Origin: Acidobacteria bacterium Mor1
GTDB lineage: Bacteria; Acidobacteriota; Polarisedimenticolia; Polarisedimenticolales; Polarisedimenticolaceae
Assembly: GCA_001664505.1 (NCBI GenBank)
Contig: CP011806.1
Span: 3,110,378 to 3,174,377 of the forward strand
Length of the DNA: 64,000 nt
Direction: 5' to 3'
Shown: positions 22,049 through 41,447 of the stretch, piece by piece
Position numbering within the stretch: the first letter of the stretch is position 1
Layout: the number at the start of each line of letters is the position of its first letter
Notes under the pieces: generated by a model
What the model saw: the letters and a program-made list of their open reading frames with translations, nothing else
The model's database searches: none
Told to the model about the DNA's origin: nothing
Program-made: the position numbers and the translations under genes

Positions 22049-22051
22049 GTT

Positions 22052-22501: not shown

Positions 22502-22586
22502 CGTTTTCCCGTCGAAAATCGCCGGCCAGTCTAGCGCGAATCCTCTCCCGGGACCCTGTGGGGCGGATCGGTTAGGATGGGCGCCG

Positions 22587-23810
22587 ATGAACATCCTCAT
22601 GATCTCGCCGGGCTACCCCTCCCAGATGCCCGCCTTCGCCGAGGCCCTCGCGGCCACCGGCGCACGCGTGTTCGGGATCGGCGATCAGCCCGAAAGCTCC
22701 CTCCCCGACCGTGCCCGCCGGGCGGTCACCGCGCACCTGCAGGTGCGCGACCTGTGGGACGAAGGCTCGGTGATCGGCCGGGTCATGGACGAGATGCGAA
22801 AGAACGGCGTGCGGTTCCATCGCATCGAATGCCTGTGGGAGCCGGGGATGGGACTCGCCGCCCGCTTGCGGGAGGCGCTGGGAGTCCCGGGGCTCGGCTA
22901 CTCGGCCACCGAGGGATTCCGCGACAAAGAGGTGATGAAGCGGCGGCTCGACGCCGCCGGCCTGCGCACCCCGCGCCACGCCGTAGCCCGCACCAAGGAT
23001 GAGATCCGCCGCTTCGCCGGGCCGATCGGCTTTCCGCTGATCGTCAAGCCGATCGCCGGAGCCGGCGCCACCGACACCTACCGGATCAACAGCAAGGAAG
23101 AGCTGGAATCGGTGCTCCCCCGGTTGGGACATGTCGAATCGGTCAGCGTCGAGGAGTTCATCGAAGGGGACGAGTTCACCTTCGACACGATCTGCGCCGG
23201 TGGACGGATCCTGTTCGAGAACGTCGCCTGGTACCGCACCAAGCCGATCGAGGAGCGCAAGCACCAGTGGGTCAGCCCCTCGTGCATCTGCCTGCGAGAC
23301 CTCGACGTGCCGGAACTGGCCGGAGGCCGCAAGCTGGGACGCCAGGTTCTCGACGCCCTGGGTTTCCGCGACGGCTTCACCCACATGGAGTGGTTCCGCA
23401 AGGCCGACGGCGAGGTGGTCTTCGGCGAGATCGCTGCGCGCCCGGCCGGCGCGAACCTGGTCGACGCGATGAACTTTGCGTCGGAGGTCGACCTGTTCCG
23501 CGGCTGGGCCGAGGCGGTGACTCACGGCCGCTGGACCCAGCCCTTCGAACGCAAGTACAACGCCGCGGTGGTCGGTAAGCGGGCCGCCGGTAACGGCCGC
23601 ATCCGGGCGATCCGCGGGCTGGAAAAAACCCTGCGGGAACTCGGCCCGGCCATCGCCGCCGTGCGCATGCCGGCAATCGGCGCCCCGGCGGGGAACTGGC
23701 GCCGGGGCTCCCCTTCCGACGGGTTCGTGTTCGTCCGCCATCCAGACTTCGAGACCTGCGTGGAGCTCGCGGACCGGGTCGCCCGGGATATCGAGATCCT
23801 GGCCGGCTGA
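22587..23810 (+). CDS. ATP-grasp domain protein (carboxylate-amine ligase type)
   Basis: A 407-residue protein starting at the ATG at 22587. N-terminal part: Rossmann-like pre-ATP-grasp domain (NILMISPGYPSQMP...FGIGDQP). ATP-grasp domain: GFRDKEVMKRRLDAAGLRTP, the ATP-binding lysine region FPLIVKPIAGAGATDTY and the adenine-lid segment VSVEEFIEGDEFTFDT. Metal-binding acid and Asn: FGEIAARPAGANL. Substrate is unknown; products of this type include dipeptides, biotin-like and ligated amino acids. It is divergent from the membrane-protein operon and followed by a terminator. No other biosynthetic gene is adjacent. Confidence 0.78.
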   Translation: MNILMISPGYPSQMPAFAEALAATGARVFGIGDQPESSLPDRARRAVTAHLQVRDLWDEGSVIGRVMDEMRKNGVRFHRIECLWEPGMGLAARLREALGVPGLGYSATEGFRDKEVMKRRLDAAGLRTPRHAVARTKDEIRRFAGPIGFPLIVKPIAGAGATDTYRINSKEELESVLPRLGHVESVSVEEFIEGDEFTFDTICAGGRILFENVAWYRTKPIEERKHQWVSPSCICLRDLDVPELAGGRKLGRQVLDALGFRDGFTHMEWFRKADGEVVFGEIAARPAGANLVDAMNFASEVDLFRGWAEAVTHGRWTQPFERKYNAAVVGKRAAGNGRIRAIRGLEKTLRELGPAIAAVRMPAIGAPAGNWRRGSPSDGFVFVRHPDFETCVELADRVARDIEILAG

Positions 23811-23823
23811 GCCCTCCCACCCG

Positions 23824-23847
23824 CCCGCCGAAGCCCCGGCGGGCTTG
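23824..23847 (+). terminator. Probable intrinsic terminator after the ATP-grasp gene
   Basis: Perfect 8-bp stem GCCCGCCG / CGGCGGGC (23824-23831, 23838-23845) with loop AAGCCC, followed by TT. The T-tract is short. Confidence 0.55.
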
Positions 23848-23933
23848 CTAAGATGAAGGGTGACCGGTTGCCCCACGGCCCGGCACACCCGCGGCGCTGC
23901 GCGCCCAACTCATTCAATTAGAGGCACTTAAGC

Positions 23934-26699
<2,766 letters not shown>

Positions 26700-26906
26700 T
26701 TCGCCGGGAGTGAGCCGTGGAGCAACGAGGCCCGGGTCGAGAAACGGCCTGGGGCTCTTGCTACTCCGACCGCGAGACCACGCCTGGCCTTCGTAACCTT
26801 CCTCCCGGCATCCGTCTGAGCAGTTGCTGAACAGGCCCGTGCGTCCGTTCCGGTCCAGCAAGGGCCCACGGACGACGACGCCACAACTGCATCAGGAGGA
26901 TCTGAG

Positions 26907-27446
26907 ATGAAGCGAGCTATTCCGACCATCCTGGCGCTGCTGTCCCTGGCCGGCGCAGCCCCATGTTTGGCCGATGAGGTCGTCTGGAAGGCTGATGCCA
27001 TGTCCTGCGTACCGACATCCGCAACAGCATCGGCCGGCAACTACGTCACGACGGCGGGGCGGGTGAAGTTCGCGCGGGGTGCGGTCGGCACTCTCTCCTT
27101 CATTTGTCCCTTCGACCCAAGCGACTTGCGCTTCGGCGGCCGGTTCCAGCTAGAGGCGCTGGTTCGCAATCGTGAGGACTTCGCGTCGCTGTATCCGACG
27201 GTCAAGGCCCAGCTTCGCGCGGTGCGCGAGTCGGATGGTGCCGTACTCAACGTGCTGCTCACCGACAGGCAGGATCCGGCAACCATCTTCTCGACCTTCA
27301 GGCGACTCTATAGCCGCGACGCTCTCATCGCCTGGAGTGACGACTACACCTACTATGTACAGGTCACGCTGCAGCGATCCCGGATCGATCGGATCGGCGG
27401 CGTCGAGCAGATCCCGTCGCTGCTGTCGGTGGCGCTGGTCGAGTGA
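26907..27446 (+). CDS. Secreted protein of unknown function
   Basis: A 179-residue protein with a signal peptide (AIPTILALLSLAGAAPCLA, cleavage after CLADE). The mature part is beta-rich; two Cys (in AMSCVPTS and SFICPFDP) could form a disulfide. No known domain is visible. AGGAGGA sits upstream of the ATG. It lies between acnA and a lipoprotein gene on the same strand, with 39 bases to the next gene, so it may be co-transcribed with that. Confidence 0.6.
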   Translation: MKRAIPTILALLSLAGAAPCLADEVVWKADAMSCVPTSATASAGNYVTTAGRVKFARGAVGTLSFICPFDPSDLRFGGRFQLEALVRNREDFASLYPTVKAQLRAVRESDGAVLNVLLTDRQDPATIFSTFRRLYSRDALIAWSDDYTYYVQVTLQRSRIDRIGGVEQIPSLLSVALVE

Positions 27447-27485
27447 CCCCCCCTGGCCCATGTCGGGCTGTGTTCTAATCGGGGC

Positions 27486-27947
27486 ATGCGTACGTTCGAC
27501 ACGCCCCGTTCGACGAAGAGAGCGGTCTCGTTACGGAATCTCGCCGTCGCGGTGCTACTCGCGACGGCCTTGCTGACCGCGTGCGGCGGGGATCCGATCG
27601 GTGCACCCTGCGAGTTCAAGGGCTCGGGCTTCAGCGCCGGCGACAACTGCCGCTACCAATGCCTCGAGACCCGGCAGGTCTTCTGCCCGGACGGGAGTTC
27701 GCTGCGTCCACCTCAGTGTTCGGGAGCCTCCGGCTGCGAGCCCGGCAGTTGTCCCGAAGGGCAGGTTTGCTACGCCATCGACGATCCCTTCAATCAGGAG
27801 AGCTACTGTGTGCCCGCGGACCTTTGCGGGGAACTGGCTCCGGATGCACGCTCAGGTTGGGAGCAGGAGTCCTTCGAGCGGGCCGCGGCAACTCGCGCAG
27901 TCTACGAAGAGAAACGCCGGCGGCGGGAGGCCACCACGGCTCCTTGA
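27486..27947 (+). CDS. Cys-rich lipoprotein of unknown function
   Basis: A 153-residue protein with a lipoprotein signal (LAVAVLLATALLTACGG; lipobox LTAC). About ten Cys follow in the mature part (e.g. CRYQCLETRQVFCPDG, CEPGSCPEGQVCY), suggesting a disulfide-stabilised exported domain; the C-terminus is charged and probably helical (RAAATRAVYEEKRRRRE). It is similar in character to the convergent Cys-rich protein at 28017. No family recognised. Confidence 0.62.
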   Translation: MRTFDTPRSTKRAVSLRNLAVAVLLATALLTACGGDPIGAPCEFKGSGFSAGDNCRYQCLETRQVFCPDGSSLRPPQCSGASGCEPGSCPEGQVCYAIDDPFNQESYCVPADLCGELAPDARSGWEQESFERAAATRAVYEEKRRRREATTAP

Positions 27948-27971
27948 CCGCCCGCGGCCCTTCGACCCACG

Positions 27972-28003
27972 GACGGGTCGACCCGATCACGAGTCGACCC
28001 GTC
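27972..28003. terminator. Hairpin between convergent genes
   Basis: Perfect 11-bp stem GACGGGTCGAC / GTCGACCCGTC (27972-27982, 27993-28003) with a 10-base loop, placed between two convergent stops (27947 and 28017). There is no T-tract; a dimeric-protein operator is less likely because both sides are gene ends. Confidence 0.45.
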
Positions 28004-28016
28004 GTTGCTGGTCACA

Positions 28017-28442
28017 TCAGTCGCAGAAGAAGTTGGCCGCCCAACCTTCGCCGATGCACTGGGGTCCGCCTTCGCAGTTCCCGATGGTCGCGTGCACGGT
28101 TTCACCGCTGGGGCAAGTGAGCGTCGAGCCTCCGGCCAGGCCGCATTGCTGGAGGCCGGTGTCCTCGAAGCCGAGAATGTCGGTGTTGCGCTGACAACCC
28201 AACGGGCAGCGCTCGTAGGGGCAGATCTTGGCCGACGTTTCGTCGAACCAGTCCAGGCTCGGGACCGCGTCGCGCCACGAAACCGGGGCCTTGTTCACGT
28301 CGGGATCGACGACCTGCGTCGAACGGTTCGAAACGTCCTGCGGAGTTGCCTCGGAGGCGGACTCGGTAGTCGATTCCGCTGCCGACACGGAAACGAAGGA
28401 AAGAGACAGCAGCACGAGAAGAACGAGCAAAGATCGAGACAT
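28017..28442 (-). CDS. Secreted Cys-containing protein, unknown
   Basis: A 141-residue protein from the ATG at 28442, selected because GGAGG is four bases upstream; a GTG start at 28454 is possible but overlaps that site. Signal peptide SLLVLLVLLSLSFVSVSAAE, then a Ser/Thr-rich linker (TTESASEATPQD) and a C-terminal domain with eight Cys (ICPYERCPLGCQ, LQQCGLAG, LTCPSG, NCEGGPQCIG, FFCD). No family recognised; likely disulfide-rich and extracytoplasmic. Confidence 0.6.
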   Translation of the reverse strand: MSRSLLVLLVLLSLSFVSVSAAESTTESASEATPQDVSNRSTQVVDPDVNKAPVSWRDAVPSLDWFDETSAKICPYERCPLGCQRNTDILGFEDTGLQQCGLAGGSTLTCPSGETVHATIGNCEGGPQCIGEGWAANFFCD

Positions 28443-28551
28443 CCGATCCTCCACGCGGCCGAAGCCGCAAGACTGATCATGAGCGGAATCCCATGTCAGA
28501 GGGGTGGAGTCGCTCGGAGCCCCTGTTCGTTCATTTCAGGAACAAGAAAAT

Positions 28552-29349
28552 TTACCGGACGACAATTTGGAACGGGTACGTGCGCGGGGGAGCGGCTGCC
28601 TGGGTGCCGCGCACCGTGGCGGTGTAGTCTCCGGCCGGACAACGGGAGGCGTCACAGACGAGAAAATGGAGCCGGCCGTCGGCGAGCTGATCGCGGCCGG
28701 CGATGCGCTCCTCGATCACCAGCCGCTCTCCCCGGCGGAGTTCGAAGCTCAGCGGGAACTCATCGGTAGCGGCGGTGATCTCGAAGGAGAGGTAGCGCGG
28801 CTCTCCCCTGGGAACTTCGATGAGTGCGGCGCCACCCGTCATCTGGCTCTGCGGTACCAGCCGCGGCCGGAAGCTCCGGGTTTCATCCCCTCGCGTCAGC
28901 ACGAGCAGAAGCAGCGCCCCCGCCAGCCCCGCTGCGACCAGCCAACCCGCAATCGATCCGGCCGAAGGGCGCGATGCGGCCTTGTGTGCGGTAGGGAGCT
29001 CAACCGGCGATGTCTCGACGGGAGCCACGCTGCGATCGATCCAGCGGGATTCGGTAGCGCACGTCACGCACAGCGCGAGGTGTTCCCGCAGCTCGAGAAG
29101 CGGAGCGCCGGTGAGTTCCCCCCTCACCGCCGCCACCAGTTCCTCGGGAGAGGGGTGGGCTCCCAGGACCGGGCCGCCGTCCCGTTCGATGGCGTCCCGG
29201 GCGGCCTGGAAGGTGTCGAAATCCTCGCGGCACTCGGGGTGTTCCGCGAGCAACGCCTCGACCTCGGCCTGTTCTTCGGCCGAAAGGGTGCCCGCCACGT
29301 ACCACGGAATCAACCAGCGCAGGCGGTCGACGGCTTCGCGGGAGCTCAT
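28552..29349 (-). CDS. Membrane anti-sigma factor with zinc-finger (ZAS-like) motif
   Basis: The 265-residue protein starts at the ATG at 29349, which overlaps the stop of the CHAT gene by four bases (ATGA). The N-terminal half has an anti-sigma-like helical region with LREHLALCVTCATE, a His-x3-Cys-x2-Cys motif typical of the ZAS fold that holds an ECF sigma factor, followed by a membrane helix (IAGWLVAAGLAGALLLLVLT) and an extracytoplasmic beta-rich domain (residues about 175-265, ending PRTYPFQIVVR). Its natural partner is the ECF sigma at 33611. The translational coupling to the TPR-CHAT protein suggests the protease-like protein and the anti-sigma are made in fixed ratio. Confidence 0.75.
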   Translation of the reverse strand: MSSREAVDRLRWLIPWYVAGTLSAEEQAEVEALLAEHPECREDFDTFQAARDAIERDGGPVLGAHPSPEELVAAVRGELTGAPLLELREHLALCVTCATESRWIDRSVAPVETSPVELPTAHKAASRPSAGSIAGWLVAAGLAGALLLLVLTRGDETRSFRPRLVPQSQMTGGAALIEVPRGEPRYLSFEITAATDEFPLSFELRRGERLVIEERIAGRDQLADGRLHFLVCDASRCPAGDYTATVRGTQAAAPPRTYPFQIVVR

Positions 29350-32300
29350 GGCTTCACCTTCGGATCGGAGCGATAGGGATCGCCGATGAGAACGAACGGG
29401 GCCCAGCGGTAGGGTTGGCGGAACGCCTTGACGTCGGACTCGAGGAACGCGAGTTGGGTCGCGCGGAGAGCGGCCGCCGCCGACTCCCCGGCGGACAGCC
29501 GGGCGTAGAACGATTCGAGAAACTCGGCGGCCGTGGCGTCCTCCAGGTTCCACAGACCGACCAGGGTCGTCTGGGCACCGGCGGCCAGGAAGGCACGGGC
29601 CAGGCCGACGACCCCTTCTCCGGGGACGACCTCCCCGGACCCCGATTGGCAGGCGGACAGCACCACGAGTTCGGCCGCCAGCTCCAGCGCGAGGGCGTCA
29701 TCGGGTTGCAGCAACCAGCCCTCCTCCTCATCGGTGGCTCCGGGGAACCACAAACCGACGCGGCGAGGCAATTCATCGTCGACCCAGCCGTGGGTCGAGA
29801 GGTGCAGGTAGCGATAGCGCTCGAGGGGAACCGCGAGAAAGTCGGCGCGGGTGATGCGTCCCTCGGGCACCCAGGCGGTGTGATCCGCGTCGAACGTCCC
29901 GGCGATCCGTTCGGTTGCGCTGTTGGAGTGCGGCAGCGCGGCGAACTCCGTCGCACCGAACCGGCCGCCGGCGCTGCCCACGGCCCACATCCCGGCCGGT
30001 GCGATCCCCGCGGGCTGGAGTCGCATCAGGCGGAGCAGACTCGCCGAGGGGATCATGGTGATCTGATGGTTCTCAATCAGATAGTCCTGCCCGCGCCGAA
30101 GCGCGGCGAAGGGAACCCGCCGCAGCGCCCCGTCGGGAACCACCAGCAATCGCTCCGCAAGCGTGACCTCGGTCAACCCCAACGCTTCGGTCAGGGCGGA
30201 CTCGGCCGCGGTAGCTCCCTCGCCGGACAGGCCCAGCTGCGGGCCACGGATCCCATCGGCGTGGGCCTCGATCGCTCTCTCGATCGAACGCCGCGAGCCG
30301 AGCGAGATGACCCTGGCATCCCGCGCGTCGACGACCCAGAGATAGGAGCGCTCTTCGCCGATCATGTAGCGCAACAACGTCTCGTCCGGCTGCAACACCT
30401 GCTGGATATCGGAAAGCGACGACGGCGCCGGACGGGAACGGTCCGTCAGGTCGCCGGCGTTTCGAGATTCGATTCGAAACTCGGCGAGCTCCGCCTCGGC
30501 CTCGTGGAGGCGCGTGGCCGCCGGGTCCGACCCTTCCGTGCCCGCGGCCGCGACCACTCCTGCCACCGCCCGGGAGATTCGATCGAGAAGCTCCGCTTCG
30601 CGGTCGTCCCGGCCGACATCCCGCTCCCCGCCTCGGCCCGGATCTCGATCCTGGCGTAGCTCGTAGCTGCCGCGGCCTCGACTCCGTTCCACGATGGCGA
30701 ACGCCGACGGGTGCGGGGCCGGCTCGCGGGCCATCTCGAGTTCGACGATCCGCTCGGCCAGGTCGGTGCGAACGCTGGCGAATCCGATACGAAACCCGTC
30801 CAGCGGGAGACGCGCCTGCCGGGCCTCGCGACTCTCGAACACCCGCCGCCAGGCCGCCAGCGCCTCGCCTGGATGCCCGTCACGTTGTTCGACGTGGCCG
30901 ATTCCCTCGAGAGCACGGTCAGCCTGCTCGACGTAGCCACCCGCGGACGCCAACTCGAACGCCCGTTGATGAGCGTCCCGCGCCTTGCCCAGGGCGCCCT
31001 CCCGGGTCGCGATCGACCCGAACAGGTTGTGCACCCGGGCCTGCCCTTCGGCATCGTCGCCCGCCTCGAAGCCGGCTAGCGCTTGACCCAGCAACCTGCG
31101 GGCACCTCGAACGTCGCCGAGCCTCCGGCGAACGTCGGCCAGGTTGTAACGCGAGAACGCCAGCCCGACCTCGTCACCGTTCTCTTCGCGCAACGCAATC
31201 GATCGCTCGCAGGCGGACTCCGCAGCAGAAAGATCCCCGGAGTCGGTCAGCAGCACACAGAGATTGTTCAGCAGGAGCGGCTCACGACGCCCGCTGGAGC
31301 GGCGTACTGCGGGATCCTCGGCCTGTTCCAACAGCTCCAGCGCGGCGCGGGTATAGCGCTCGGCAACCTGAAGGTCGCCCAACCCATGGGCGATGGCCGC
31401 GAGATTCGACAGCGCGTCGGCGCGCGGGCCGAACCGCCGCAGTTCCTGCTCGATTTTGTGCGCGCGACGCTGCACGACGAACGCCTCGGTCAGGTCTCCC
31501 TGCGCCGCCTCGATCGAGGCGAGCTGACTGAGAGCCTTGCTCTCCAGCGAAGGGTACTCGCTGGCGCGGCAGAGCCGGATCACCTCGTTGAAAGTGTCCT
31601 TCGCGGAACCGAGATCCCCCTCGAGGGCCTCGATACGCCCGCGTGGAAACACGATCGCCGCTTCGGCGCGTCGATCGTCCGCAGCGCCCGCGAGGTCGAG
31701 ACCTCGGTCGACTGCCTGCCGGGCCGCGTTCAGGTCGCCGTGATCGACCCAGTGATGGGCCACATCCGCCAGCAGGCGCACGCCTCGCCTCGTCCGGCCG
31801 CCCTCAACCGCCAGCTCGATGGCTTCGTCCCAGCGTTGCATCGCGTCTGAATGCCGGTCGATCTTGCCGTACACGGTCGCCAGCCTGCTGGAGCTATCGA
31901 TCCGATTCCGTGTCGTGTCGATCCGATGACGCAACTCGACTGCCTCGAGCAGCGGATCGATCGCCTCGAGGCTGCGGCCGGCGCGATCCAACGAGTCACC
32001 CAAGGCATGCAGGCTCAACGCCAGCGCCCGCTCGTCGTCCCGGGAACGGGCGAGCTCCACCGCACGGGCCTGGAACCCCGCGGCGTCCTCGTAGCGACCG
32101 CGGGACCGGAGCAACCTGCCCAGCTGTGTAAGCGCGCTGGACTGCCCGGAGGTGTCCTCCAGTTGGTCGAACAGGTTCAAAGCGCGCTCGAGCGAGGCCT
32201 CGGCAAGATCGTAGTCGCGGGTCCTGATCGCTGCCTGCCCTCGCAGCAGGACGCTGGAGGCCATCCCCGGCGCGTGCTCCAGCATGACGTACCGGTCGAG

Positions 32301-32651
32301 CGCATCGTCGGCCCGCTCGACCGCCTCTGCCGCTTCGCCTTGAAAAAGGGCCAGGAACCCCGACCCGAGTTCGTGACAGGCAGGCGCGACTCCCAAACGT
32401 TCCAGCAGTGCAGCGCCGGCTTCCGGATCCTTCTGGCCATGAAGACGGGCCGGCCAGCCGCAGATCTTCGGATGTCCGGAATCCAGCGCGACCATCTTCT
32501 CGAGCAACGGAAGCACCGTCGCTTCGCTGCGTTCCTCTTGGCCGGCCGCCTCGGAATGAAGTTCCAGCACCGCCCGATGGCTCTGCTGCCGGGCCTCGTC
32601 CGCAAGCCACGCACCCTCCGGAGTGGCCGGCGCACAGGCCGCGGCCAGCAT
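29346..32651 (-). CDS. TPR-CHAT domain protein (caspase-like)
   Basis: At least 1101 residues. Much of the N-terminal 800 is TPR helices (e.g. ALTQLGRLLRSRGRYEDAAGFQ), then a coiled segment, and a C-terminal CHAT domain with the catalytic pair: His954 in HLSTHGW and Cys1001 in LSACQSGSGE, plus the following GEGVVGLARAFLAAGA helix typical of CHAT. It should act as a caspase-fold Cys protease recognising a partner through TPRs. The start is unclear: a lipoprotein-like leader (RRLSRRF...AAAC) extends in frame beyond the ATG at 32651, but no start codon is found there; the nearest ATG (32737) is in another frame. Co-directional with, and overlapping, the anti-sigma gene. Confidence 0.82.
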   Translation of the reverse strand: MLAAACAPATPEGAWLADEARQQSHRAVLELHSEAAGQEERSEATVLPLLEKMVALDSGHPKICGWPARLHGQKDPEAGAALLERLGVAPACHELGSGFLALFQGEAAEAVERADDALDRYVMLEHAPGMASSVLLRGQAAIRTRDYDLAEASLERALNLFDQLEDTSGQSSALTQLGRLLRSRGRYEDAAGFQARAVELARSRDDERALALSLHALGDSLDRAGRSLEAIDPLLEAVELRHRIDTTRNRIDSSSRLATVYGKIDRHSDAMQRWDEAIELAVEGGRTRRGVRLLADVAHHWVDHGDLNAARQAVDRGLDLAGAADDRRAEAAIVFPRGRIEALEGDLGSAKDTFNEVIRLCRASEYPSLESKALSQLASIEAAQGDLTEAFVVQRRAHKIEQELRRFGPRADALSNLAAIAHGLGDLQVAERYTRAALELLEQAEDPAVRRSSGRREPLLLNNLCVLLTDSGDLSAAESACERSIALREENGDEVGLAFSRYNLADVRRRLGDVRGARRLLGQALAGFEAGDDAEGQARVHNLFGSIATREGALGKARDAHQRAFELASAGGYVEQADRALEGIGHVEQRDGHPGEALAAWRRVFESREARQARLPLDGFRIGFASVRTDLAERIVELEMAREPAPHPSAFAIVERSRGRGSYELRQDRDPGRGGERDVGRDDREAELLDRISRAVAGVVAAAGTEGSDPAATRLHEAEAELAEFRIESRNAGDLTDRSRPAPSSLSDIQQVLQPDETLLRYMIGEERSYLWVVDARDARVISLGSRRSIERAIEAHADGIRGPQLGLSGEGATAAESALTEALGLTEVTLAERLLVVPDGALRRVPFAALRRGQDYLIENHQITMIPSASLLRLMRLQPAGIAPAGMWAVGSAGGRFGATEFAALPHSNSATERIAGTFDADHTAWVPEGRITRADFLAVPLERYRYLHLSTHGWVDDELPRRVGLWFPGATDEEEGWLLQPDDALALELAAELVVLSACQSGSGEVVPGEGVVGLARAFLAAGAQTTLVGLWNLEDATAAEFLESFYARLSAGESAAAALRATQLAFLESDVKAFRQPYRWAPFVLIGDPYRSDPKVKP

Positions 32652-32780
32652 CAGGATCCAGACGCCGAGCGCCGCGAACCGGCGAGAAAGGCGACGATTC
32701 GGGCTGGTTTCGTGGCGACGCCACGTTTTCGGGGCATACTCACGGCAGGGAACACACCTTTCTTGGATTCGGAGGTGTCT

Positions 32781-33608
32781 GTGGCTGGAATGAACAGAAA
32801 CTTGATCGCGATGAGCGTCTGCCTGGGCCTGATCCTCGGCTCCCACGCCCACGCGGGAGACATCGAATACACGGGATCGGGAGACGGCGGCGGAATCGAC
32901 ATCGAATGCCACGGGGACGATCGGTCGTCGGCGTCCTGCGAAGACGGAGGCTCCAACATCAGCGTCGACGGCGGGCTGCCCACCACCGAGTGCATCGCGA
33001 AGGACGGATACAACCCTCCGAGCATGCAACAACCGCCGGAGAACGAGGAGCTCGACGTCTTTCAGGAATGCCTCGAGGATTTGATTCCCGCCCCGTACTC
33101 GGTGACGATCCTGACCTCCCCCAACCCGGGGCTTCGCATCCTGAACAGTGACGGGACGGAGGTCTCGGGCCTGTGCGCCAACGAGAACAGCACGGACATC
33201 CGTTGGTTGCGCCTGACGGTCGCGGGGGCGGGCCTGCGAGCCAAGGTCGGCCTGTTCGAGCCGGACGCCCAGCCGCTGGGCGGCACTGTCGAAGTCACAG
33301 TCGACGGCGCGGTCTATTGGATCAACACAACCCCGAGCCAGACTGGAAGCGACGTCAATCAGGCGCTCTACTTCGAGATTCGGGGTAAGCTCGGTTCCGC
33401 GGTCACACGCCACGGCGACAGCCATCTGATCATCGAGAGCACCGGCGGCAGCCTCGGGATCAACTCGGTCTCCTTCCACAGCGACGATGACGGGCTGGCT
33501 CGCAGCATCCTGGAGTTGACGCCGTTCTCGAGTGGAATCGGTCCGGCATCCTGCGCAGACCCATCCATGGCGATGGCCTCGGTGATGCCACAGTCGGGCA
33601 GGCCGTAG
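32781..33608 (+). CDS. Secreted protein of unknown function inside the sigma/CHAT cluster
   Basis: A 275-residue protein read from GTG 32781, where GGAGG lies five bases upstream; the ATG at 32790 is an alternative. The signal peptide is MNRNLIAMSVCLGLILGSHAHAG, then a short acidic/Gly-rich section with Cys (IDIECHGDD, SSASCEDGG, PTTECIAKDG), and a beta-rich C-terminal domain. It is transcribed against its neighbours: divergent from the CHAT gene and convergent with the sigma gene (two bases between stops). No family recognised; it might be the extracytoplasmic input or a target of the cluster. Confidence 0.6.
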   Translation: MAGMNRNLIAMSVCLGLILGSHAHAGDIEYTGSGDGGGIDIECHGDDRSSASCEDGGSNISVDGGLPTTECIAKDGYNPPSMQQPPENEELDVFQECLEDLIPAPYSVTILTSPNPGLRILNSDGTEVSGLCANENSTDIRWLRLTVAGAGLRAKVGLFEPDAQPLGGTVEVTVDGAVYWINTTPSQTGSDVNQALYFEIRGKLGSAVTRHGDSHLIIESTGGSLGINSVSFHSDDDGLARSILELTPFSSGIGPASCADPSMAMASVMPQSGRP

Positions 33609-33610
33609 TT

Positions 33611-34276
33611 TCATCCCGCGCCCCTCTCTTCACGATCACCGGACAACAGCCGCCGCATCGCTTCGACCGCGATGCGGCGGCAATTCCAGAGCCTGGACTT
33701 GAGTGTCCCCTCGGGAATACCCAACCGGTCCGCAACACGATCCCTGGGCAATCGTTCGATGAAGACCAGGTACCAAAGCCGCTGGCAGCGGGCCGGTAGG
33801 TTGAGCAACACCTGGCGCAGCAACACGTGATTCTCGGCGTTGCGTTGCAGCTTGTAGGGGTTCGGCGGATCGTCGGCAGGCGGCTCGCTGGAGAGAAAGT
33901 CCCTCAGCGCCCGGTCACGGTAGCGTTTGCGCATGCGGTCCAGCGCCGTGTGGTGGGCGATCCCGGTGACGTAGGTGCGCAGCGCGGAGGTGCCGCGGTA
34001 GGCGCCGGCACGCAGCTTGACCAGCAGCTTTTCATGGACGGTCTGACATAGATCCGCGTGCTCCCGATCCAGGGAGGGGTACGAACGCCTCAGCTCGCCC
34101 CGGATCCATTCGTCGATCTCGCGGAAGACTTGCGGCTGCCCGTTCAAGTACCCGTCGACCCGGCTGCGCTGTTCGAGCTCTCTCTCGAGCTTCTTTTCGT
34201 GCTGCTGATCGATGAGCGCCCCCGCATCTTTCGCGCCGGCGAGCGCGGAAAAACCCGGGGTCGACGACCCGGACAC
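33611..34276 (-). CDS. ECF RNA polymerase sigma factor
   Basis: About 221 residues from the GTG at 34276; no convincing ribosome site decides the exact start. Region 2: SLDREHADLCQTVHEKLLVKL and GTSALRTYVTGIAHHTALDRMRKRYRDRA. Region 4: a helix-turn-helix, CQRLWYLVFIERLPRDRVADRLGIPEGTLKSRLWNCRRIAV. It lacks regions 1.1 and 3, so it is an ECF sigma. The preceding ~35 residues (KKLERELEQRSRVDG) are extra. Activity is probably held by the anti-sigma factor at 28552. A TATACT hexamer at about 34308-34313 (minus strand) could be part of its own promoter, but no good -35 accompanies it. Confidence 0.85.
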   Translation of the reverse strand: MSGSSTPGFSALAGAKDAGALIDQQHEKKLERELEQRSRVDGYLNGQPQVFREIDEWIRGELRRSYPSLDREHADLCQTVHEKLLVKLRAGAYRGTSALRTYVTGIAHHTALDRMRKRYRDRALRDFLSSEPPADDPPNPYKLQRNAENHVLLRQVLLNLPARCQRLWYLVFIERLPRDRVADRLGIPEGTLKSRLWNCRRIAVEAMRRLLSGDREERGAG

Positions 34277-34474
34277 CCCGGCGCTACGGCGCTCTTTGCC
34301 GACTGAGTATACGCACCAAGCGAGACGGGGACCGGAGAATGATCGCGTCCCGATGAACTTCTGGGGTGCTCGAGCGACTCCACCCTTCGTGAAACGTGAG
34401 GTGGGGGTCCGATCACCGCTCCGCATTAGTTTGTGTTCCCTTGGCGGAGGGTGGTGGAGCACCACTGCGCAGAT

Positions 34475-34500
34475 GCCCGGGGCCGGTTGCGGGCCCGGGC
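34475..34500 (-). terminator. Possible terminator hairpin after the FG-GAP gene
   Basis: GCCCGGG (34475-34481) and CCCGGGC (34494-34500) can pair, just beyond the stop at 34510 on the minus strand. There is no T-tract; low confidence. Confidence 0.3.
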
Positions 34501-34509
34501 TTCTGCGTC

Positions 34510-36423
34510 CTAACGCAGAGCGGTCTCGCCGCAGATGTTGGTCGCGGTGATCAGGTAGTAGTGCGACGTCACGTCGCCCGCGGCGCCGCTGTCCCGGTGT
34601 TGAATCCCCGCGGTCCCCGCGTCCGCATCGCTGACGCCGGCGGCGTGGGGCTCGCCCCACCCGCTCGGATCCTTGCTCGCGTCGCGGTAGACGTTCCAGG
34701 AGATACCGGCATCCGCCGGGTCATCCCAGGTCAGCACCACGTCCGGACCGTCCCGATCCAGCCGCAGTTGGGTCGGATCCGCCGCCCCGGCGCAAGGCTC
34801 GTTGATCGTCAGGAACTGATCGGCGGTCACGTTGGTCAACACCTGCTCGGTGAGCGTTGCATTGGGCCAGCGCACGGTAATCGAGTCGACAGAGGTGTTG
34901 CTGCCCAGCCCGAAGTGCAGACGCAGCGGCCGCATCGGACCCTCGTGGCCGTTGCCCGCGTGAACCTCCTGCATCTGGCTCACGCCGCCGGCGACCACGG
35001 TCACCCGTGCGCCGATGGCGCTGCGGTTGGAGAAACCGGGCGCGCCGACCCCCTCGAGGTCGATGGCCAGCCAGTGATTGTCGGTGCCGACATCGTTGCG
35101 ATAGAGCCGCAGCTCGCCGCCTAGCGTCACCAGCAGATCCTCGTCGCCGTCGAGGTCGAAATCCAGAGGCGTGACGTAGCCCGGAGACAGGCCCGCGGTG
35201 TTGATCCCGTCGAGACCGGAAGCCGGCGTATCGGCATCGAAGGTGTGGTCGGACTGCTGGCGGAACAGATACAGCCGCGGGTTGTCGTAGCCGCTTTCGG
35301 TCAGGAAGAAATCGACCAGCATGTCGTTGTCCACGTCGATCCAGCTGGCGAAGTGGTCGCCGTGGTGGGTGGTGTCCGGGTCTTCCAGCGAGCGGCCGGA
35401 GATGCGGTTGAAGTCCCAGGAGAACACACCGGCGTTGTTGGTGGCGGTGGCGCTGTACACGCTGCCGTCGCCGTGGGTCATGATCTCGAGGAAATCCATG
35501 TCGCCGTCGTTGTCGTAGTCCCGGGGCATGGTGCCGAAGGAGACCTTCTGCAGCGGGAAACCGCGGTAATCGTCGTAGTTGGTCGAACTCTCGACCCGGG
35601 TAAAGGTCCCGTCGCCGTTGTTGCGCCAGTGCCGCGCATAGGAATCGAACACCGTACGGCTGTAGGGGGGCGCGAACAGATCCATGTCTCCGTCGCCGTC
35701 CCAATCGAAGGTCGCCACCGCGTACACACAGGTCGTCATGGTGTCCAGGCCGGAACCGGTGGTCACGTTGGTGAAGCTGCCGTCGCCATGCCCCTGGTAT
35801 AGATGATCGATGTTCAGCGTGCTGTCCGGGTTGTACCAGGTGCCGATGTAAAGATCGACGCTGCCGTCGTTGTCGTAGTCGAGAAAGGTCGCCGTCGGCG
35901 TGTTCCAGTTGGGCTCGGTGTGAAAGGCAGAGACCGGCGACAGGCTGAAGCTCCCGCTGCCGTCGTTGATCAACAGATCGTTGCGACCGAGATCCAGGGC
36001 GTAGCTGCGATGCAGGTAGACGCTGGTGAAGATGTCCAGGTCGCCGTCGTTGTCGACGTCGGCGAAGATCGCCGCGTCGGAGTGCCGGCCGGTAGCGGTC
36101 CCGGCACGGTTGTCCCGAATACCCGAACCGGCGGTGTGGTCGACGAACTTGCGGCTGAAGGGATCGCCGGGGGTGTCCCCCGGCTCGTTCAGCAGCAGGA
36201 ACTGCTTGTCCAACACGTCGCCGGCCGCGTGGTTGGGCTCGGTGTGCATCAGGATGTCCGGGTAGCCGTCCCCGTTGAGATCCCCTACCGACACCCGGTA
36301 GGGCACGATGCCGGTCAGGCCGGCGTCTCCGCTGACATCGGTGAAGTAGGGGGCCGTCGGCTGGGCCGCGGACGGAAGGGCGGCGAAGGCCAGCAACAGC
36401 AAGGCCGGGATCGATTTGTGCAT
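34510..36423 (-). CDS. Secreted FG-GAP/VCBS propeller protein with ASPIC/UnbV domain and C-terminal beta module
   Basis: A 637-residue protein with a signal peptide (IPALLLLAFAALPSAAQ). It contains about seven FG-GAP/VCBS repeats with Ca-binding loops (DLNGDGYPDI, DVDNDGDLDI, DYDNDGSVDL, DWDGDGDMDL, DYDNDGDMDF, DVDNDMLVDF, DFDLDGDEDL). Residues about 465-530 match the ASPIC/UnbV pattern (GARVTVVAGGVSQMQEVHAG, HFGLGSN, ITVRWPN). The C-terminal ~90 residues look like a fibronectin-type module (DVVLTWDDPADAGISWNVYR). It is likely an extracellular Ca-dependent binding protein. No enzyme site visible. Confidence 0.82.
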   Translation of the reverse strand: MHKSIPALLLLAFAALPSAAQPTAPYFTDVSGDAGLTGIVPYRVSVGDLNGDGYPDILMHTEPNHAAGDVLDKQFLLLNEPGDTPGDPFSRKFVDHTAGSGIRDNRAGTATGRHSDAAIFADVDNDGDLDIFTSVYLHRSYALDLGRNDLLINDGSGSFSLSPVSAFHTEPNWNTPTATFLDYDNDGSVDLYIGTWYNPDSTLNIDHLYQGHGDGSFTNVTTGSGLDTMTTCVYAVATFDWDGDGDMDLFAPPYSRTVFDSYARHWRNNGDGTFTRVESSTNYDDYRGFPLQKVSFGTMPRDYDNDGDMDFLEIMTHGDGSVYSATATNNAGVFSWDFNRISGRSLEDPDTTHHGDHFASWIDVDNDMLVDFFLTESGYDNPRLYLFRQQSDHTFDADTPASGLDGINTAGLSPGYVTPLDFDLDGDEDLLVTLGGELRLYRNDVGTDNHWLAIDLEGVGAPGFSNRSAIGARVTVVAGGVSQMQEVHAGNGHEGPMRPLRLHFGLGSNTSVDSITVRWPNATLTEQVLTNVTADQFLTINEPCAGAADPTQLRLDRDGPDVVLTWDDPADAGISWNVYRDASKDPSGWGEPHAAGVSDADAGTAGIQHRDSGAAGDVTSHYYLITATNICGETALR

Positions 36424-36497
36424 GGTCTACCCCCTGTCCCGGGAGCATACGTCGATCCTGGGCTGCGGAAAAGGAGGGATCCGGATGACCTAGGGCC

Positions 36498-36941
36498 TCA
36501 GCCTCGGATCTCTCCCGACTCGACCAGCCGTTTGAACGTCTCCAGGTCGTTGCAGCTGCGCTTTTTCATCGCCCCTTTGATGAACGGCAGCATCAGCCAC
36601 ATCATGATCGAGCGACCCTTGAAGTTCGAGCGAAAGTGGATGCCGGTGCGCTCACCCCGATCGATGAAATTGACCTCCATGGTCGCGTGGGTGCCGGGCC
36701 CTTCCAGAATGCCGGCCATGTGTTTCTCCGGTTCGTGAGCCGTGATCGTCTCGATCAACTCGACGATGCGTCCCCGCTCCAGGTAGACCTGCCGGGTCTT
36801 GGCGCCGACGGCTCCGGGCTCTCCGCTGATGGACTCGGTGCGCTGCAGCCCCTGGATCCAACGCGGCAGATTGTCCGGGTGGTTGAACGCGGCGTAGACC
36901 TCGCGCAACGGTCGTTCGACTTCAATCTCGATCTCGATCAT
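36498..36941 (-). CDS. SRPBCC family (START/Bet v 1-like) protein
   Basis: A 147-residue protein from the ATG at 36941. The pattern IEIEIEVERPLREVYAAFNHPDNLPRW and the following strands and final helix define an SRPBCC lipid- or ligand-binding cavity protein. Lies four bases after the AraC gene on the same strand, so it is the second gene of that operon. A second SRPBCC protein lies just beyond the AraC gene on the other strand. Ligand unknown. Confidence 0.75.
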   Translation of the reverse strand: MIEIEIEVERPLREVYAAFNHPDNLPRWIQGLQRTESISGEPGAVGAKTRQVYLERGRIVELIETITAHEPEKHMAGILEGPGTHATMEVNFIDRGERTGIHFRSNFKGRSIMMWLMLPFIKGAMKKRSCNDLETFKRLVESGEIRG

Positions 36942-36945
36942 CGAC

Positions 36946-37773
36946 TCATCCCTCCCGGGTGTCGCGCACCGGCTGGTGCACCACGACCCCGTCATCCTGC
37001 TGAATTTCCACGATCGGCCCCGGCCTCAGCCGGTGACGTCCCGCCATCGCCCAGACGAACAATCGCTGATAGATCGTCGGCGCCACCGGGCCGGGCCCTT
37101 CGAACCGCAGAGCCGCGTACAGCCCACCTCCGATGGAACGCCGCACCCATCCTTCGTCTACCGGCCGGCCGTCGAGCCGCCGCCCCCAGTCCTGCCGCAC
37201 GAAACCGGGTGGTGTGATGCCCGGCCAATCCAGCAGCAGCCCCACCCGAGGCGCGTCGGAGCCGGCGCCGTTCCACTCGCACCAGGGTGCCGCCGCAGGG
37301 TCGAAGCAAAAGCCTTCGTCGACGCCGACGCTGCGCCGCACCTCGATCTTCGATTCTGGCAAGCGTGCGATCCGAATCTCTCCCGGCCGGCCCAGCGGGT
37401 CTTCGCCGGCGTCCAACCCCAGTTCACCCCAGAGTCGAATCTGCTCTCTGCGATAGTCCCGGGCGGAGACCTCGAAGTGGGCGCGGAACCGGCGGGCAAA
37501 TGTCTCTGGGCGTCGGAACCCGACATCCATCGCCAGCTCCGTGATCGGTTCATCCCGTGCCAGCAGCATCAGCGCCGCCCGTTCGAGCCGCAGCCGCTCG
37601 AGAAACACCGCCGGGGTTTCACCCGAGGCGGCACGGAACATCCGGTGAAAATGGAAGGCGGAAAAGCGGGCCTCTCCGGCCATTCGCTCCAGGGTCCAGG
37701 CCTCGGCCAGCTGCGACTCGACGCGGTCGACGACCTGAATCACGGCCTCCGGAATCCAGCTTCTCCTGCCCAT
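36946..37773 (-). CDS. AraC-family transcriptional regulator with GyrI-like effector domain
   Basis: A 275-residue protein. Residues 1-115 carry the AraC double helix-turn-helix (LERMAGEARFSAFHFHRMFRAASG..., DVGFRRPETFARRFRAHFEVSARDYRRE). Residues about 125-275 match the GyrI-like small-molecule domain (IARLPESKIEVRRSVGVD, VGLLLDWPGITPP, GGLYAALRFEGPG). This domain order (DNA-binding first) is the Rob/GyrI class that responds to hydrophobic ligands. It is the first gene of an operon with an SRPBCC protein and is divergent from another SRPBCC gene, suggesting it controls both. Confidence 0.88.
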   Translation of the reverse strand: MGRRSWIPEAVIQVVDRVESQLAEAWTLERMAGEARFSAFHFHRMFRAASGETPAVFLERLRLERAALMLLARDEPITELAMDVGFRRPETFARRFRAHFEVSARDYRREQIRLWGELGLDAGEDPLGRPGEIRIARLPESKIEVRRSVGVDEGFCFDPAAAPWCEWNGAGSDAPRVGLLLDWPGITPPGFVRQDWGRRLDGRPVDEGWVRRSIGGGLYAALRFEGPGPVAPTIYQRLFVWAMAGRHRLRPGPIVEIQQDDGVVVHQPVRDTREG

Positions 37774-37904
37774 GGGGCAACCCTAGCACCGGGCCAGGCA
37801 GGAGACTTGACGCATCTTGCGGCGCCGCCGCCGGGATGAAACACCGCGATAGTAAGCCCTGCGTTCCGGCCTCCACCTCCTCTGCGGGTATGCTCGATAT
37901 CGAC

Positions 37905-38594
37905 ATGGCGAAACGTTCACCAGGATCGAGTAAGCGCATGGGCCGGATCTTGAAGGGCCTGCTCATCGCCCTGCTGAGTGCAGCGGCGCTGATCCTGATC
38001 GGCGGTGCGCTCCTGTTCAGCGGGTCGGAAGTGACCTGCGAAGAGTTCGAACCGGAAGGGGGCACGCCGGCCTTGCGCTGTGGTTTCGAAGTCGCCGCCA
38101 CGCCCGAAGCCGTTTGGGAGACCTTCACCCGCACCGACGAACCGCAGCCCCACTACTTCGACGCCGTGCTTCAGGCGGAGATGCATCCCGGCGGCCGCTG
38201 GCGTTTCGTCACCGACGACCTCCAACGCCTGCTCGCCGACGGTGTGGTCCTGGCCGTCGATCCCCCTCGCCGCTTTCAGCAGACCTTTCGTGCCGCCGAC
38301 CTCGAGGAAGCGCCGAGCCGGATCACCGTAGAACTCGAACCCACCGCCACCGGCAGCCGGGTCACCCTGACTCACGACCGCTTCCCGGGGAAGACGGTGA
38401 CCTACCGGCGTTTCCGCAAGGCCCACCCGTTGGCGCTCTCGGCGATGAAGGCCCGGCTCGAGACCGGAAAGCTGCCGGTCCGGGCGCGGATTTACACCTG
38501 GATCTTCAAGCCGGGAATGAAGTCGGTCAGCGCCCGGGCCGAGCCCTGGGAGCCCCGGAACCGCGGATTTCCCGGCCGCCCGCAAGAAAACTGA
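37905..38594 (+). CDS. Membrane-anchored SRPBCC (AHSA1-like) protein
   Basis: About 229 residues from the ATG at 37905; 37938 is an alternative that starts right at the membrane helix (LLIALLSAAALILIGGALLF). After the helix comes an SRPBCC domain (CGFEVAATPEAVWETFTRTDEPQPHYF, WRFVTDD, FRAADLEEAPSRITVELE). The C-terminus (TWIFKPGMKSVSARAEP) is basic. It is divergent from the AraC operon, so likely part of that regulon. No ligand is evident. Confidence 0.65.
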   Translation: MAKRSPGSSKRMGRILKGLLIALLSAAALILIGGALLFSGSEVTCEEFEPEGGTPALRCGFEVAATPEAVWETFTRTDEPQPHYFDAVLQAEMHPGGRWRFVTDDLQRLLADGVVLAVDPPRRFQQTFRAADLEEAPSRITVELEPTATGSRVTLTHDRFPGKTVTYRRFRKAHPLALSAMKARLETGKLPVRARIYTWIFKPGMKSVSARAEPWEPRNRGFPGRPQEN

Positions 38595-38663
38595 TCCGGT
38601 TTGCCCGCGAATTGCGCCCTTTCAAGTGCGGAACCGATCGCGGTTCCGGATGGAGGAATGGGC

Positions 38664-41354
38664 ATGTCTCGTGGGTGGCAAACGACTCTGTGGCTGGTGC
38701 TGGTTTCGATTCTCGGAGGCTTCGCCGGGTTGGCGGCTGAGACGCCTGATTCCGGCCCCCCGTCCGATCTGGAGCACGAACGGACCCTCGCACCACCCAC
38801 TGCGGCTCCTCGGCCCCAGGTCCTGGTACCCGACCGGGACCACGACCACCAGGGCGTTCCGGCGACCCTCGGCCGGTTGGAAGCTCCGCCGGCCTCCGAG
38901 GACCCCGCCGCTCCCGAGACCATCGCCGCGCCGACCCTGACCGGCCTGCGCTGGCCCCTGCCCGCCTCCTACGATGATCTGACGCAGCTGATCAACTACG
39001 TCGACGTCGACGACGGCACCAGCGGGATCCAGGAGTACAACTGCGGCTTCACCGCCTACGACGGCCACCGGGGTGTGGACATCAACATCGACGACTTCGT
39101 CGAGATGGAGAAGGGCTACCACATTCTCGCCGTGGACGACGGCGAGGTGCTGTTCGCCTTCGACGGCAACTTCGACCGCCGAACCGCCACCGGCGTCGAC
39201 ACCCCCAACTACGTCGACGTGCGCCACGGCGACGGCACGATCTCGCGCTACCTGCACATGAAGAAGGGAAGCGTCACCGTGCGTCCCGGACAGATGGTGC
39301 GCCGCGGAGACTCCCTGGGCCTGATCGGGAGCTCCGGCTTCTCCTCGAGCCCCCACCTGCACATCGAGTTCTACGACGAGAACGACTTCGACACGATCTA
39401 CGTGCCGAACAACGGCCCGTGCCAGAGCAACGCTTCGATGTGGGAGAACCAGCCGACCTACGTGTGGGACCGTCCGGCGGACCTGATTCGCACCGGCCTC
39501 TCGATCAACGAGCCGACCTACGCCACGGTTCTTGACCGCCTGCCGATGATCGAACGGCTCCCCGGCAGTTCGACCCAGTGGATCTACCTGTGGACCACCC
39601 TGGAAGCGTTCCGCACCACCGACGTGATGCGCATCGTCCTGCAGCCGGTTTCGGGGATCACCTGGTACGACTTCACCTACTCCCCTCCCCAGGATTACTC
39701 CTGGGCCTGGTTCTACTGGAACCTGCAGCTCCCGGGAAACACCTACCTGGGGGAATGGCGCATGCAGATCTACATGAACGGCCAGCTCGAACAGGAGCGC
39801 CGCTTCCAGTGGGGCCAACCGATCTCGACGCCGGTGGCCCAGGATGCGACCCACGCGGTCACCGGCGGGCAGCCGTTCAGCGATCGCATGGTCGCCACCG
39901 ACGCCGACAGCACCAACCTGCGCTATCGGGTGATGAGCCAGCCGAGCCGCGGACGGGTGATCCAGCCGAACCCCGACGAGCCCTGGTTCACCTATCTGCC
40001 CGAGGGCCGAGGCGCGGTCAACGACTCCTTCACCTTCCTGGCCATCGACGAGGTCGAGCAGTCCAGCAACGTGGCGACGGTCACGCTGCAAGAGGGTGCC
40101 TCGAATACCAACGTACTCAGCGTGGTCGGAGATCAGGAATCGGTTGACGTGCCGCTCGGCAGCTCCCTGCAGCTCAGCGACACCTTCACCATCGAGGCCT
40201 GGGTGCGGCGCGGAGCCTTCTCCAACGGCAACCGAGTCATCTACGAGGCGATCGATCCGGCGCTGGACAACGGCCTGCTGTTCTACGTCGGTGCCTCGGG
40301 ACGCCTGATCCTGAGCGCCGAGCCAGGTGCGCTGTTCGGTTCGACCGCAAAGATCCCCTTCGAGGAGTGGGTCCACGTTGCGGCGACCAGCGACGGCACC
40401 ACCGCGCGGTTGTACATCAACGGCGCCGAGGATGGCTCTGCCGCCTGGAACGGCCCGATCGACTGGTCGGGGGTCACCGAGGCCAAGCTGGGAGGCAGCC
40501 GCTACTACGACAGCGAGTGGGCCTACGGCTGGAACGGCGAGATCGACGAGATTCGGCTGTATGACGTCGCCCGCAACGGGAGCCAGATCGCCCAGGACAT
40601 CACCGACTGCGCGATCTACTCGGCGCCGGCGGAAACTTCGCTGGTCGGCTGGTGGACCTTCGACGGCGACGTCCAGGATCGCTCGACCTACAACAACCAC
40701 GGCAGCCTGACCGGCGGGGCCGGACTGGCGCCGGTCGCCGGCAACACCCCGATCTGCCCCGCTCTCGACCATGACGGAGACGGCATCACCGATACGTCGG
40801 ACAACTGCCGTTTCGTGGCTAACGCAAGCCAGGCGGACCTCGACCTCGACGGGATCGGCGATGCCTGCGACAGCTGCTCGACGGTGGCCGATGCTACCGG
40901 CGCAGATCGCGACCGGGACGGCGTGGGAGATGTCTGCGACAACTGCCCGCGGGTCGGCAACGCACTCCAGGCCGACGCCGATGCCGACGGAGACGGCGAC
41001 GCCTGCGACCCGTTCCCGGACGACCCGGGAGCCGGGCTCCCCCTCGACCCGGCGCTGACCCTCTCCAAGAGTGCGCCCACCATCGCCGAGCTCGACTGGA
41101 CCGCTGACGCCGGCGCCGCGGGCTTCGAGGTGCTGCGCGGCGAGAGCGCCGACCTGCTCGACGGACGCTACGGCGACTGCATCAGCGGAGACGACGGGAA
41201 CCCGGCCGATACGACCTACGCCGACGCCACGGTGCCGGCCGCCGGCCAGGTGTTCTTCTACCTGGTTCGCGGCATCGGACCCGAGTGGGAAACCGGCCCT
41301 TCGGGCAGCAGTTCCACGGGAGAGCGGGAGATCGGCTACCGGGTCTGTGAGTAG
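38664..41354 (+). CDS. Secreted M23 peptidase with LamG and thrombospondin-3 repeats
   Basis: An 896-residue protein from the ATG at 38664 (GGAGGA six bases upstream), signal peptide TTLWLVLVSILGGFAGLA, then a Pro-rich linker. The LytM/M23 domain carries HRGVD (H135, D139) and HLHIEF (H231, H233), so the zinc site looks complete. A beta region follows, then a LamG/concanavalin-like domain (about 480-675; TFTIEAWVRRG, WVHVAATSDGTTARLYING, GEIDEIRLYDVA), three thrombospondin-3-type Ca repeats (DHDGDGITDTSDNC, DLDLDGIGDACDSC, DRDRDGVGDVCDNC, 700-790) and a fibronectin-like tail. Role: probably a secreted peptidoglycan endopeptidase with surface-binding modules. Confidence 0.85.
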   Translation: MSRGWQTTLWLVLVSILGGFAGLAAETPDSGPPSDLEHERTLAPPTAAPRPQVLVPDRDHDHQGVPATLGRLEAPPASEDPAAPETIAAPTLTGLRWPLPASYDDLTQLINYVDVDDGTSGIQEYNCGFTAYDGHRGVDINIDDFVEMEKGYHILAVDDGEVLFAFDGNFDRRTATGVDTPNYVDVRHGDGTISRYLHMKKGSVTVRPGQMVRRGDSLGLIGSSGFSSSPHLHIEFYDENDFDTIYVPNNGPCQSNASMWENQPTYVWDRPADLIRTGLSINEPTYATVLDRLPMIERLPGSSTQWIYLWTTLEAFRTTDVMRIVLQPVSGITWYDFTYSPPQDYSWAWFYWNLQLPGNTYLGEWRMQIYMNGQLEQERRFQWGQPISTPVAQDATHAVTGGQPFSDRMVATDADSTNLRYRVMSQPSRGRVIQPNPDEPWFTYLPEGRGAVNDSFTFLAIDEVEQSSNVATVTLQEGASNTNVLSVVGDQESVDVPLGSSLQLSDTFTIEAWVRRGAFSNGNRVIYEAIDPALDNGLLFYVGASGRLILSAEPGALFGSTAKIPFEEWVHVAATSDGTTARLYINGAEDGSAAWNGPIDWSGVTEAKLGGSRYYDSEWAYGWNGEIDEIRLYDVARNGSQIAQDITDCAIYSAPAETSLVGWWTFDGDVQDRSTYNNHGSLTGGAGLAPVAGNTPICPALDHDGDGITDTSDNCRFVANASQADLDLDGIGDACDSCSTVADATGADRDRDGVGDVCDNCPRVGNALQADADADGDGDACDPFPDDPGAGLPLDPALTLSKSAPTIAELDWTADAGAAGFEVLRGESADLLDGRYGDCISGDDGNPADTTYADATVPAAGQVFFYLVRGIGPEWETGPSGSSSTGEREIGYRVCE

Positions 41355-41383
41355 CCCTGACGACACCCCTGAGACAAGCCTTG

Positions 41384-41447
41384 CGGCGGCTTTCGCCGTT
41401 TAGGTGATCGGAACCGCCGGTGAGTTCGAGTAGTATCTCACCGGCGG
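41384..41447. terminator. Two hairpins between the M23 and Cys-repeat genes
   Basis: A small stem CGGCG-gcttt-CGCCG (41384-41398) followed by TTT could end the M23 transcript. A second perfect 11-bp stem CCGCCGGTGAG / CTCACCGGCGG (41414-41424, 41437-41447) follows. The first fits a weak terminator; the second may be regulatory or a second stop. Confidence 0.4.

Follow-up and report, generated by a model that had tools for sequence, protein, structure and literature searches.

A recurrent gene module of Acidobacteriota combines an ECF sigma factor, a transmembrane anti-sigma factor and a TPR-CHAT protein with export signals

The caspase-like CHAT proteins of bacteria have mostly been discussed in connection with cell death and phage defence. 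Here we describe a locus in which a predicted protease of this kind is encoded beside an extracytoplasmic function (ECF) sigma factor and a zinc-motif transmembrane anti-sigma factor; it lies in a 64,000-nucleotide stretch of the Acidobacteria bacterium Mor1 genome (contig CP011806.1, positions 3,110,378 to 3,174,377), which is called the window. The closest described counterpart is the type III-E CRISPR Craspase/CASP system, in which a TPR-CHAT protein with a His-Cys dyad, an inhibitor of an ECF sigma factor and the sigma factor itself are encoded together (PMC10028731; PMC9729208), and in which the TPR-CHAT protein Csx29 cleaves Csx30, the inhibitor of CASP-sigma (PMC10028731). In the RseA/DegS/RseP pathway, a single-pass anti-sigma factor with a cytoplasmic sigma-binding half and a periplasmic half is subject to proteolysis by a protease acting from outside (PMC8103513). 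The ECF54 group has been described with CHAT proteins in its neighbourhood and without an anti-sigma factor, and proteolysis has been proposed for it (PMC8999054). Our literature search found no description of an exported CHAT protein linked to a sigma/anti-sigma pair, and the 2021 ECF classification (10.1093/nar/gkaa1229) may name such a linkage. Our results give good support to the view that sigma factor, anti-sigma factor and CHAT protein form a conserved module, which is present in about 17 paralogous copies in this genome and is widespread in related Acidobacteriota.

The genes of the locus are listed in Table 1. A preliminary description made from the DNA letters had placed a sigma gene, a CHAT gene, an anti-sigma gene and a gene for a secreted protein here, and all four were found at these positions: the sigma gene lies 5' of the CHAT and anti-sigma genes on the same (minus) strand, and the secreted-protein gene, which scores as coding, runs in the opposite direction between sigma and CHAT. 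The four-base overlap noted there was also confirmed, the anti-sigma ATG beginning at 29349 and the CHAT TGA occupying 29348-29346. The sigma factor scored 62.9 bits against TIGR02937 (cut-off 42.9) and thus belongs to the ECF sigma factors. Its scores for PF08281 and PF04542 were slightly under the cut-off, its best phmmer matches among solved structures were ECF sigma factors (top match 6jcy_F, E = 1e-6), and it shares 45% identity with the sigma factors of loci L023 and L048, both of which come from similar modules.

Table 1. Features of the sigma/anti-sigma/CHAT locus (positions in the window).
Feature	Position	Strand	Remarks
Exported Cys-rich 141-aa protein	28017..28442	-	110 bases downstream of anti-sigma
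Zinc-motif anti-sigma factor, 265 aa	28552..29349	-	zf-HC2, two stretches
Anti-sigma transmembrane segment, about residues 131-151	28897..28959	-	hydrophobic stretch in translation; single transmembrane segment also called in relatives
Exported TPR-CHAT protease (predicted)	29346..~32690	-	PF12770 E = 1.1e-55, plus TPR families
Catalytic Cys codon of CHAT (VVLSACQSG)	29649..29651	-	alignment; invariant in 53/53 CHATs
Catalytic His codon of CHAT (HLSTHG)	29790..29792	-	alignment; invariant in 53/53 CHATs
ECF-promoter-like site GGGAACACA-N13-CGGAG upstream of secreted gene	32748..32774	+	post hoc pattern
Exported 272-aa protein, no known family	32790..33608	+	transcribed towards sigma and away from CHAT
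ECF sigma factor (221 aa) limited to regions sigma-2 and sigma-4	33611..34276	-	GTG start
ECF-promoter-like site GGGAACACA-N13-CGGTG upstream of sigma	34414..34440	-	post hoc pattern

The anti-sigma factor had likewise been described correctly as a zinc-motif transmembrane protein, since it exceeds the zf-HC2 cut-off (34 bits against 22.2) and contains one transmembrane stretch. It is built of two helical units resembling the zinc-binding anti-sigma (ZAS) domain, the transmembrane helix and an Ig-like periplasmic domain. The first ZAS-like unit has lost part of the zinc motif, and in the second HxxxCxxC is invariant across seven relatives. This motif, the small helical domain, the single transmembrane segment and the adjoining sigma gene are the features expected of a ZAS anti-sigma factor, which would presumably bind and inhibit its cognate sigma factor. 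In the AlphaFold2 model, residues 3-104 are helical and residues 163-265 form a beta sandwich (pLDDT, the model's per-residue confidence score, about 75-95) that matches Ig-like folds with Z up to 8.9; this fold is common and is uninformative on the function of the periplasmic domain.

The TPR-CHAT protein possesses both the domain and the His-Cys dyad that define the caspase-like CHAT family, and a sequence search of solved structures with it returned TPR proteins only. As the dyad is intact in all of the 53 aligned CHAT proteins, including highly divergent ones, selection appears to maintain the protease chemistry. The N-terminus of the CHAT frame shows a lipoprotein-like hydrophobic stretch, RRFAALGVWILMLAAAC, at about 32620-32690, and the sole in-frame ATG, GTG or TTG below 32846 is found at 32651, within this stretch. 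On the minus strand of window positions 32600-32800, a short way upstream of this stretch and in a different frame, an ATG opens a basic stretch. We rejected a 1422-aa CHAT reading frame beginning at the stop codon of the sigma gene: the extension is antisense to the secreted-protein gene and its coding score was 0.025 log-odds per codon compared with 0.205 for that gene, which argues that this is not the real CHAT start. Among the modules analysed, a strict signal-peptide rule was passed by 36 of 51 CHAT proteins (10 of them lipoprotein-like) and by none of the 51 sigma factors or 51 anti-sigma factors. Most CHAT proteins that failed the rule have a hydrophobic N-terminus by inspection, and clear signal peptides occur among the relatives, for example the lipobox LAAGC in L023. 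These export signals indicate that the module CHATs are exported, as lipoproteins or periplasmic proteins. The periplasmic portion of the anti-sigma factor would be the only one within reach of an exported CHAT, a point absent from the preliminary description.

The Mor1 genome encodes 21 CHAT proteins, and gene calls around all of them placed 18 in 17 sigma/anti-sigma/CHAT modules, with an ECF-like sigma factor and a single-pass anti-sigma factor. The gene order varies (sigma>anti-sigma>CHAT; sigma>CHAT>anti-sigma; sigma>anti-sigma>exported protein>CHAT; CHAT beside a divergent or convergent sigma/anti-sigma pair), and a transmembrane anti-sigma factor is present in nearly every module. The genome is dense in both families, with 80 Pfam sigma hits besides the 21 CHATs, and the genes might therefore be neighbours by chance. 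However, 13 of the 21 CHAT genes have a Pfam sigma hit at a distance of 5 kb or less, compared with a background of 12.8% of the genome (P = 1.8e-7, from position alone). Furthermore, 60 loci were drawn from further genomes in the class by CHAT alone. A CHAT gene was called in 59, and 35 of these have a sigma gene no more than 2.5 kb away, which lies in tandem upstream in 20, in tandem downstream in 2 and on the opposite strand in 13. Considering also the co-divergence described below, we reject chance linkage, the probability of which we take to be negligible. The recurrence of the module with an exported protease suggests that gene expression inside the cell is controlled in part by a protease located beyond the inner membrane. 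Two CHAT loci deserve separate mention: in L022 (4833-11154) of the Mor1 genome, two tandem CHATs, both with the dyad, a signal peptide and a C-terminal transmembrane segment, follow one sigma/anti-sigma pair, and in L035 (4452-10283) a 1943-aa CHAT of a different kind is found with neither a signal peptide nor a nearby sigma gene.

A scan of 85,000 species extended the survey beyond the class. The diversity of a broad CHAT alignment made it unsuitable for scanning contigs, and a set of closer CHAT relatives was used, which yielded 79 named loci. A sigma factor and a zinc-motif transmembrane anti-sigma factor adjoin the CHAT gene in Bryobacterales (L118, L126), Chloracidobacterium (L130), Pyrinomonadaceae (L132), Aminicenantes (L188, L189), other Acidobacteriota loci and one KSB1 locus (L146). 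The neighbourhood survey suggested in the preliminary description thus revealed linkage that has been conserved within the class and also outside it. Neither gene accompanies CHAT at the many cyanobacterial loci among the 79, and these serve as a built-in negative control. In some loci of Bryobacterales, Blastocatellia and related groups (L161:374-6171, L187:1192-7864, L190:2372-8143 and L192:432-7864), a different sigma factor of about 187 aa is followed by a protein of 519-604 aa in place of the transmembrane anti-sigma factor, and then by the CHAT and an exported protein of 280-300 aa, with RGIVPEEVL in three of them. This layout could represent a second wiring of sigma to CHAT.

Sigma factor, anti-sigma factor and CHAT have diverged together. 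Among the 17 Mor1 paralogues the sigma and CHAT distances were correlated with r = 0.67 (p = 0.0005), and those of sigma and anti-sigma with r = 0.67-0.70. Because paralogues of one genome were compared, species history cannot confound the sigma-CHAT correlation. In partial tests with the remaining module parts held fixed, the periplasmic half of the anti-sigma factor tracked CHAT (r = 0.33, p = 0.0003 in other genomes; r = 0.20, p = 0.055 in Mor1). The cytoplasmic half hardly did so (r = 0.08 and -0.04), following sigma instead (partial r = 0.49 in Mor1 and 0.42 in other genomes). That the periplasmic half tracks CHAT is what action of CHAT on the outside domain would predict, and lends this idea indirect support.

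Our preferred reading, to which we assign a probability of roughly one half, is that the exported CHAT makes the first cut on the periplasmic domain of the anti-sigma factor and thereby frees the sigma factor. The gene identities, linkage, export signals, intact dyad, co-divergence and shared promoter-like sites can be read from the DNA; sigma binding, cleavage, the cue and the order of events we infer as follows. The single-pass anti-sigma factor would retain the ECF sigma factor in the cytoplasm through its zinc-binding domain, while the exported TPR-CHAT, possibly through its TPRs or through exported partner proteins, would sense an extracytoplasmic cue. Activated CHAT would then cut the Ig-like domain or the linker of the anti-sigma factor, ordinary intramembrane and cytosolic proteolysis would follow, and the freed sigma factor would transcribe its own gene and that of the exported partner. 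As regards the RseA-type pathway, the topology of the anti-sigma factor fits and site-2-type M50 peptidases are present in the genome; the outside protease, however, would here be a module-encoded CHAT cysteine protease and not a serine protease of the DegS type. The module shares its set of components and the dyad with Craspase/CASP, but its CHAT is exported and its inhibitor is a zinc-motif transmembrane anti-sigma factor, and it is best read as a membrane-spanning analogue of Csx29-Csx30-CASP-sigma. A type III-E Craspase/CASP locus is marked by Cas7-11 (gRAMP), a crRNA array, Csx30 and Csx31. An origin from type III-E CRISPR was rejected, as none of the ten proteins encoded in and near the locus matched a Cas protein, no CRISPR-like repeats were detected in window positions 22000-42000, and the inhibitor is of the transmembrane zinc-motif type. 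ECF54, for which CHAT or other peptidases in the vicinity are typical, resembles the module in its conserved nearby CHAT-domain proteins, and is set apart by its description as lacking an anti-sigma factor.

Several observations weigh against the first cut being made by CHAT. The CHAT frame has no usual start codon just ahead of the signal-like stretch, possibly owing to a sequencing error, an unusual start or recoding, and a CHAT anchored as an outer-membrane lipoprotein might fail to reach an anti-sigma factor in the inner membrane. The sigma-CHAT correlation persists after the anti-sigma factor is removed (r = 0.49 in Mor1), a residue for which a purely indirect link has no need, and the correlations in the other genomes are inflated by species history and relatedness. 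The preliminary description had named unlinked CHAT and sigma genes in relatives as a point against its proposal; such loci exist, comprising the cyanobacterial CHATs and about 40% of the class loci (some on short contigs), and the linkage in the remainder stands.

Linkage and co-divergence would also be expected if CHAT were merely a target of the sigma factor, that is, if the sigma/anti-sigma pair sensed another signal and switched on an exported protease and secreted partners that act on proteins outside the cell, on competitors or on the envelope of the cell itself. ECF sigma factors commonly control neighbouring genes, CHAT and sigma share an operon or flank in most modules, a promoter-like site lies in the divergent region between CHAT and the secreted-protein gene, and CHAT is found without sigma as well. 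A mere target, however, need not be tracked specifically by the periplasmic half of the anti-sigma factor; moreover, each module keeps one CHAT regardless of gene order, and in the known TPR-CHAT/sigma precedent the protease is the activator (PMC10028731). We consider CHAT as an output the main rival reading, though less likely than CHAT as the activator. The switch proposed in the preliminary description is upheld in so far as linkage, co-divergence and the dyad define a sigma/anti-sigma/CHAT unit, and nothing was found that argues for its role in cell death.

The exported partners offer another candidate substrate. A protein in the slot of the 272-aa protein recurs in L023, L048 and L049 (in L049 again divergent from CHAT), and the four sequences are weakly alike (pairwise blastp E from 5e-4 upward within this set). 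Profile searches matched the 272-aa protein to no family and its structure model was unusable (pLDDT 30.6). The 141-aa protein shows 47% identity over 74 aa (phmmer E = 1e-21) with a 134-aa exported protein that directly adjoins the related CHAT in L049, a locus of a different genus in this family. This is its sole detected relative, there being no second copy in the Mor1 genome, and because that relative also adjoins such a CHAT, the 141-aa gene is probably a fifth module gene, which the preliminary description had missed. Exported proteins of about 512-544 aa adjoin the anti-sigma or CHAT gene in the Mor1 modules L024, L028, L029, L031, L033, L036, L037 and L038; they are apparently of two kinds, one with starts like WVANENGSFTVIDA (beta-propeller-like) and the other with WSLxDxxCxxGQSTLE. 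CHAT might thus process an exported partner (here the 272-aa and/or the 141-aa protein), the product of which would signal to the anti-sigma factor. We regard this as quite improbable, as several modules (L026, L027 and L030) comprise just sigma, anti-sigma and a CHAT that itself bears a C-terminal transmembrane segment, and the strand of the module carries no gene for an exported partner next to them.

The shared promoter that the preliminary description had proposed to look for has a candidate in a promoter-like site upstream of both the plus-strand gene and the sigma gene, albeit by a post hoc pattern. GGGAACACA-N13-CGGWG has three exact sites in 5.985 Mb, two of which are those upstream of the sigma and secreted-protein genes, in the right orientation; since the pattern was derived from these two regions, the count of three is not independent. 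In shuffled sequences a shared bipartite block arose by chance in 0.5-2% of cases (1e-4 if GAAC was demanded), and an ungapped alignment of both promoter regions was not significant, 7 of 60 shuffles being as good. AAC is the -35 hallmark of ECF promoters (PMC8103513), with which the GAAC found here agrees. A similar block, TGAAC-N16-CG(A/C)C, again defined post hoc, is present in the intergenic region between CHAT and the exported-protein gene of L023, L048 and L049.

The CHATs described here appear as recurrent, exported partners of ECF sigma/anti-sigma pairs in which the catalytic dyad is conserved. If CHAT is the site-1 protease, this would provide a function for many orphan CHAT genes, extend regulated intramembrane proteolysis by a branch that uses cysteine proteases and offer a setting outside CRISPR from which the Csx29-Csx30-CASP-sigma circuit could have emerged. 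More tentatively, at odds somewhat short of even, Acidobacteriota may have evolved lineage-expanded, dedicated site-1 proteases from exported TPR-CHATs, every one of them coupled to an anti-sigma/ECF sigma pair of its own, giving about 17 parallel, insulated caspase-to-transcription channels across the inner membrane of a cell. With 17 paralogous modules in a single genome, the specificity of protease, anti-sigma and sigma for one another can be tested directly. Immediately upstream of the sigma gene and on the same strand, the window (34510-36423, minus) also encodes an exported protein with FG-GAP/UnbV_ASPIC repeats.

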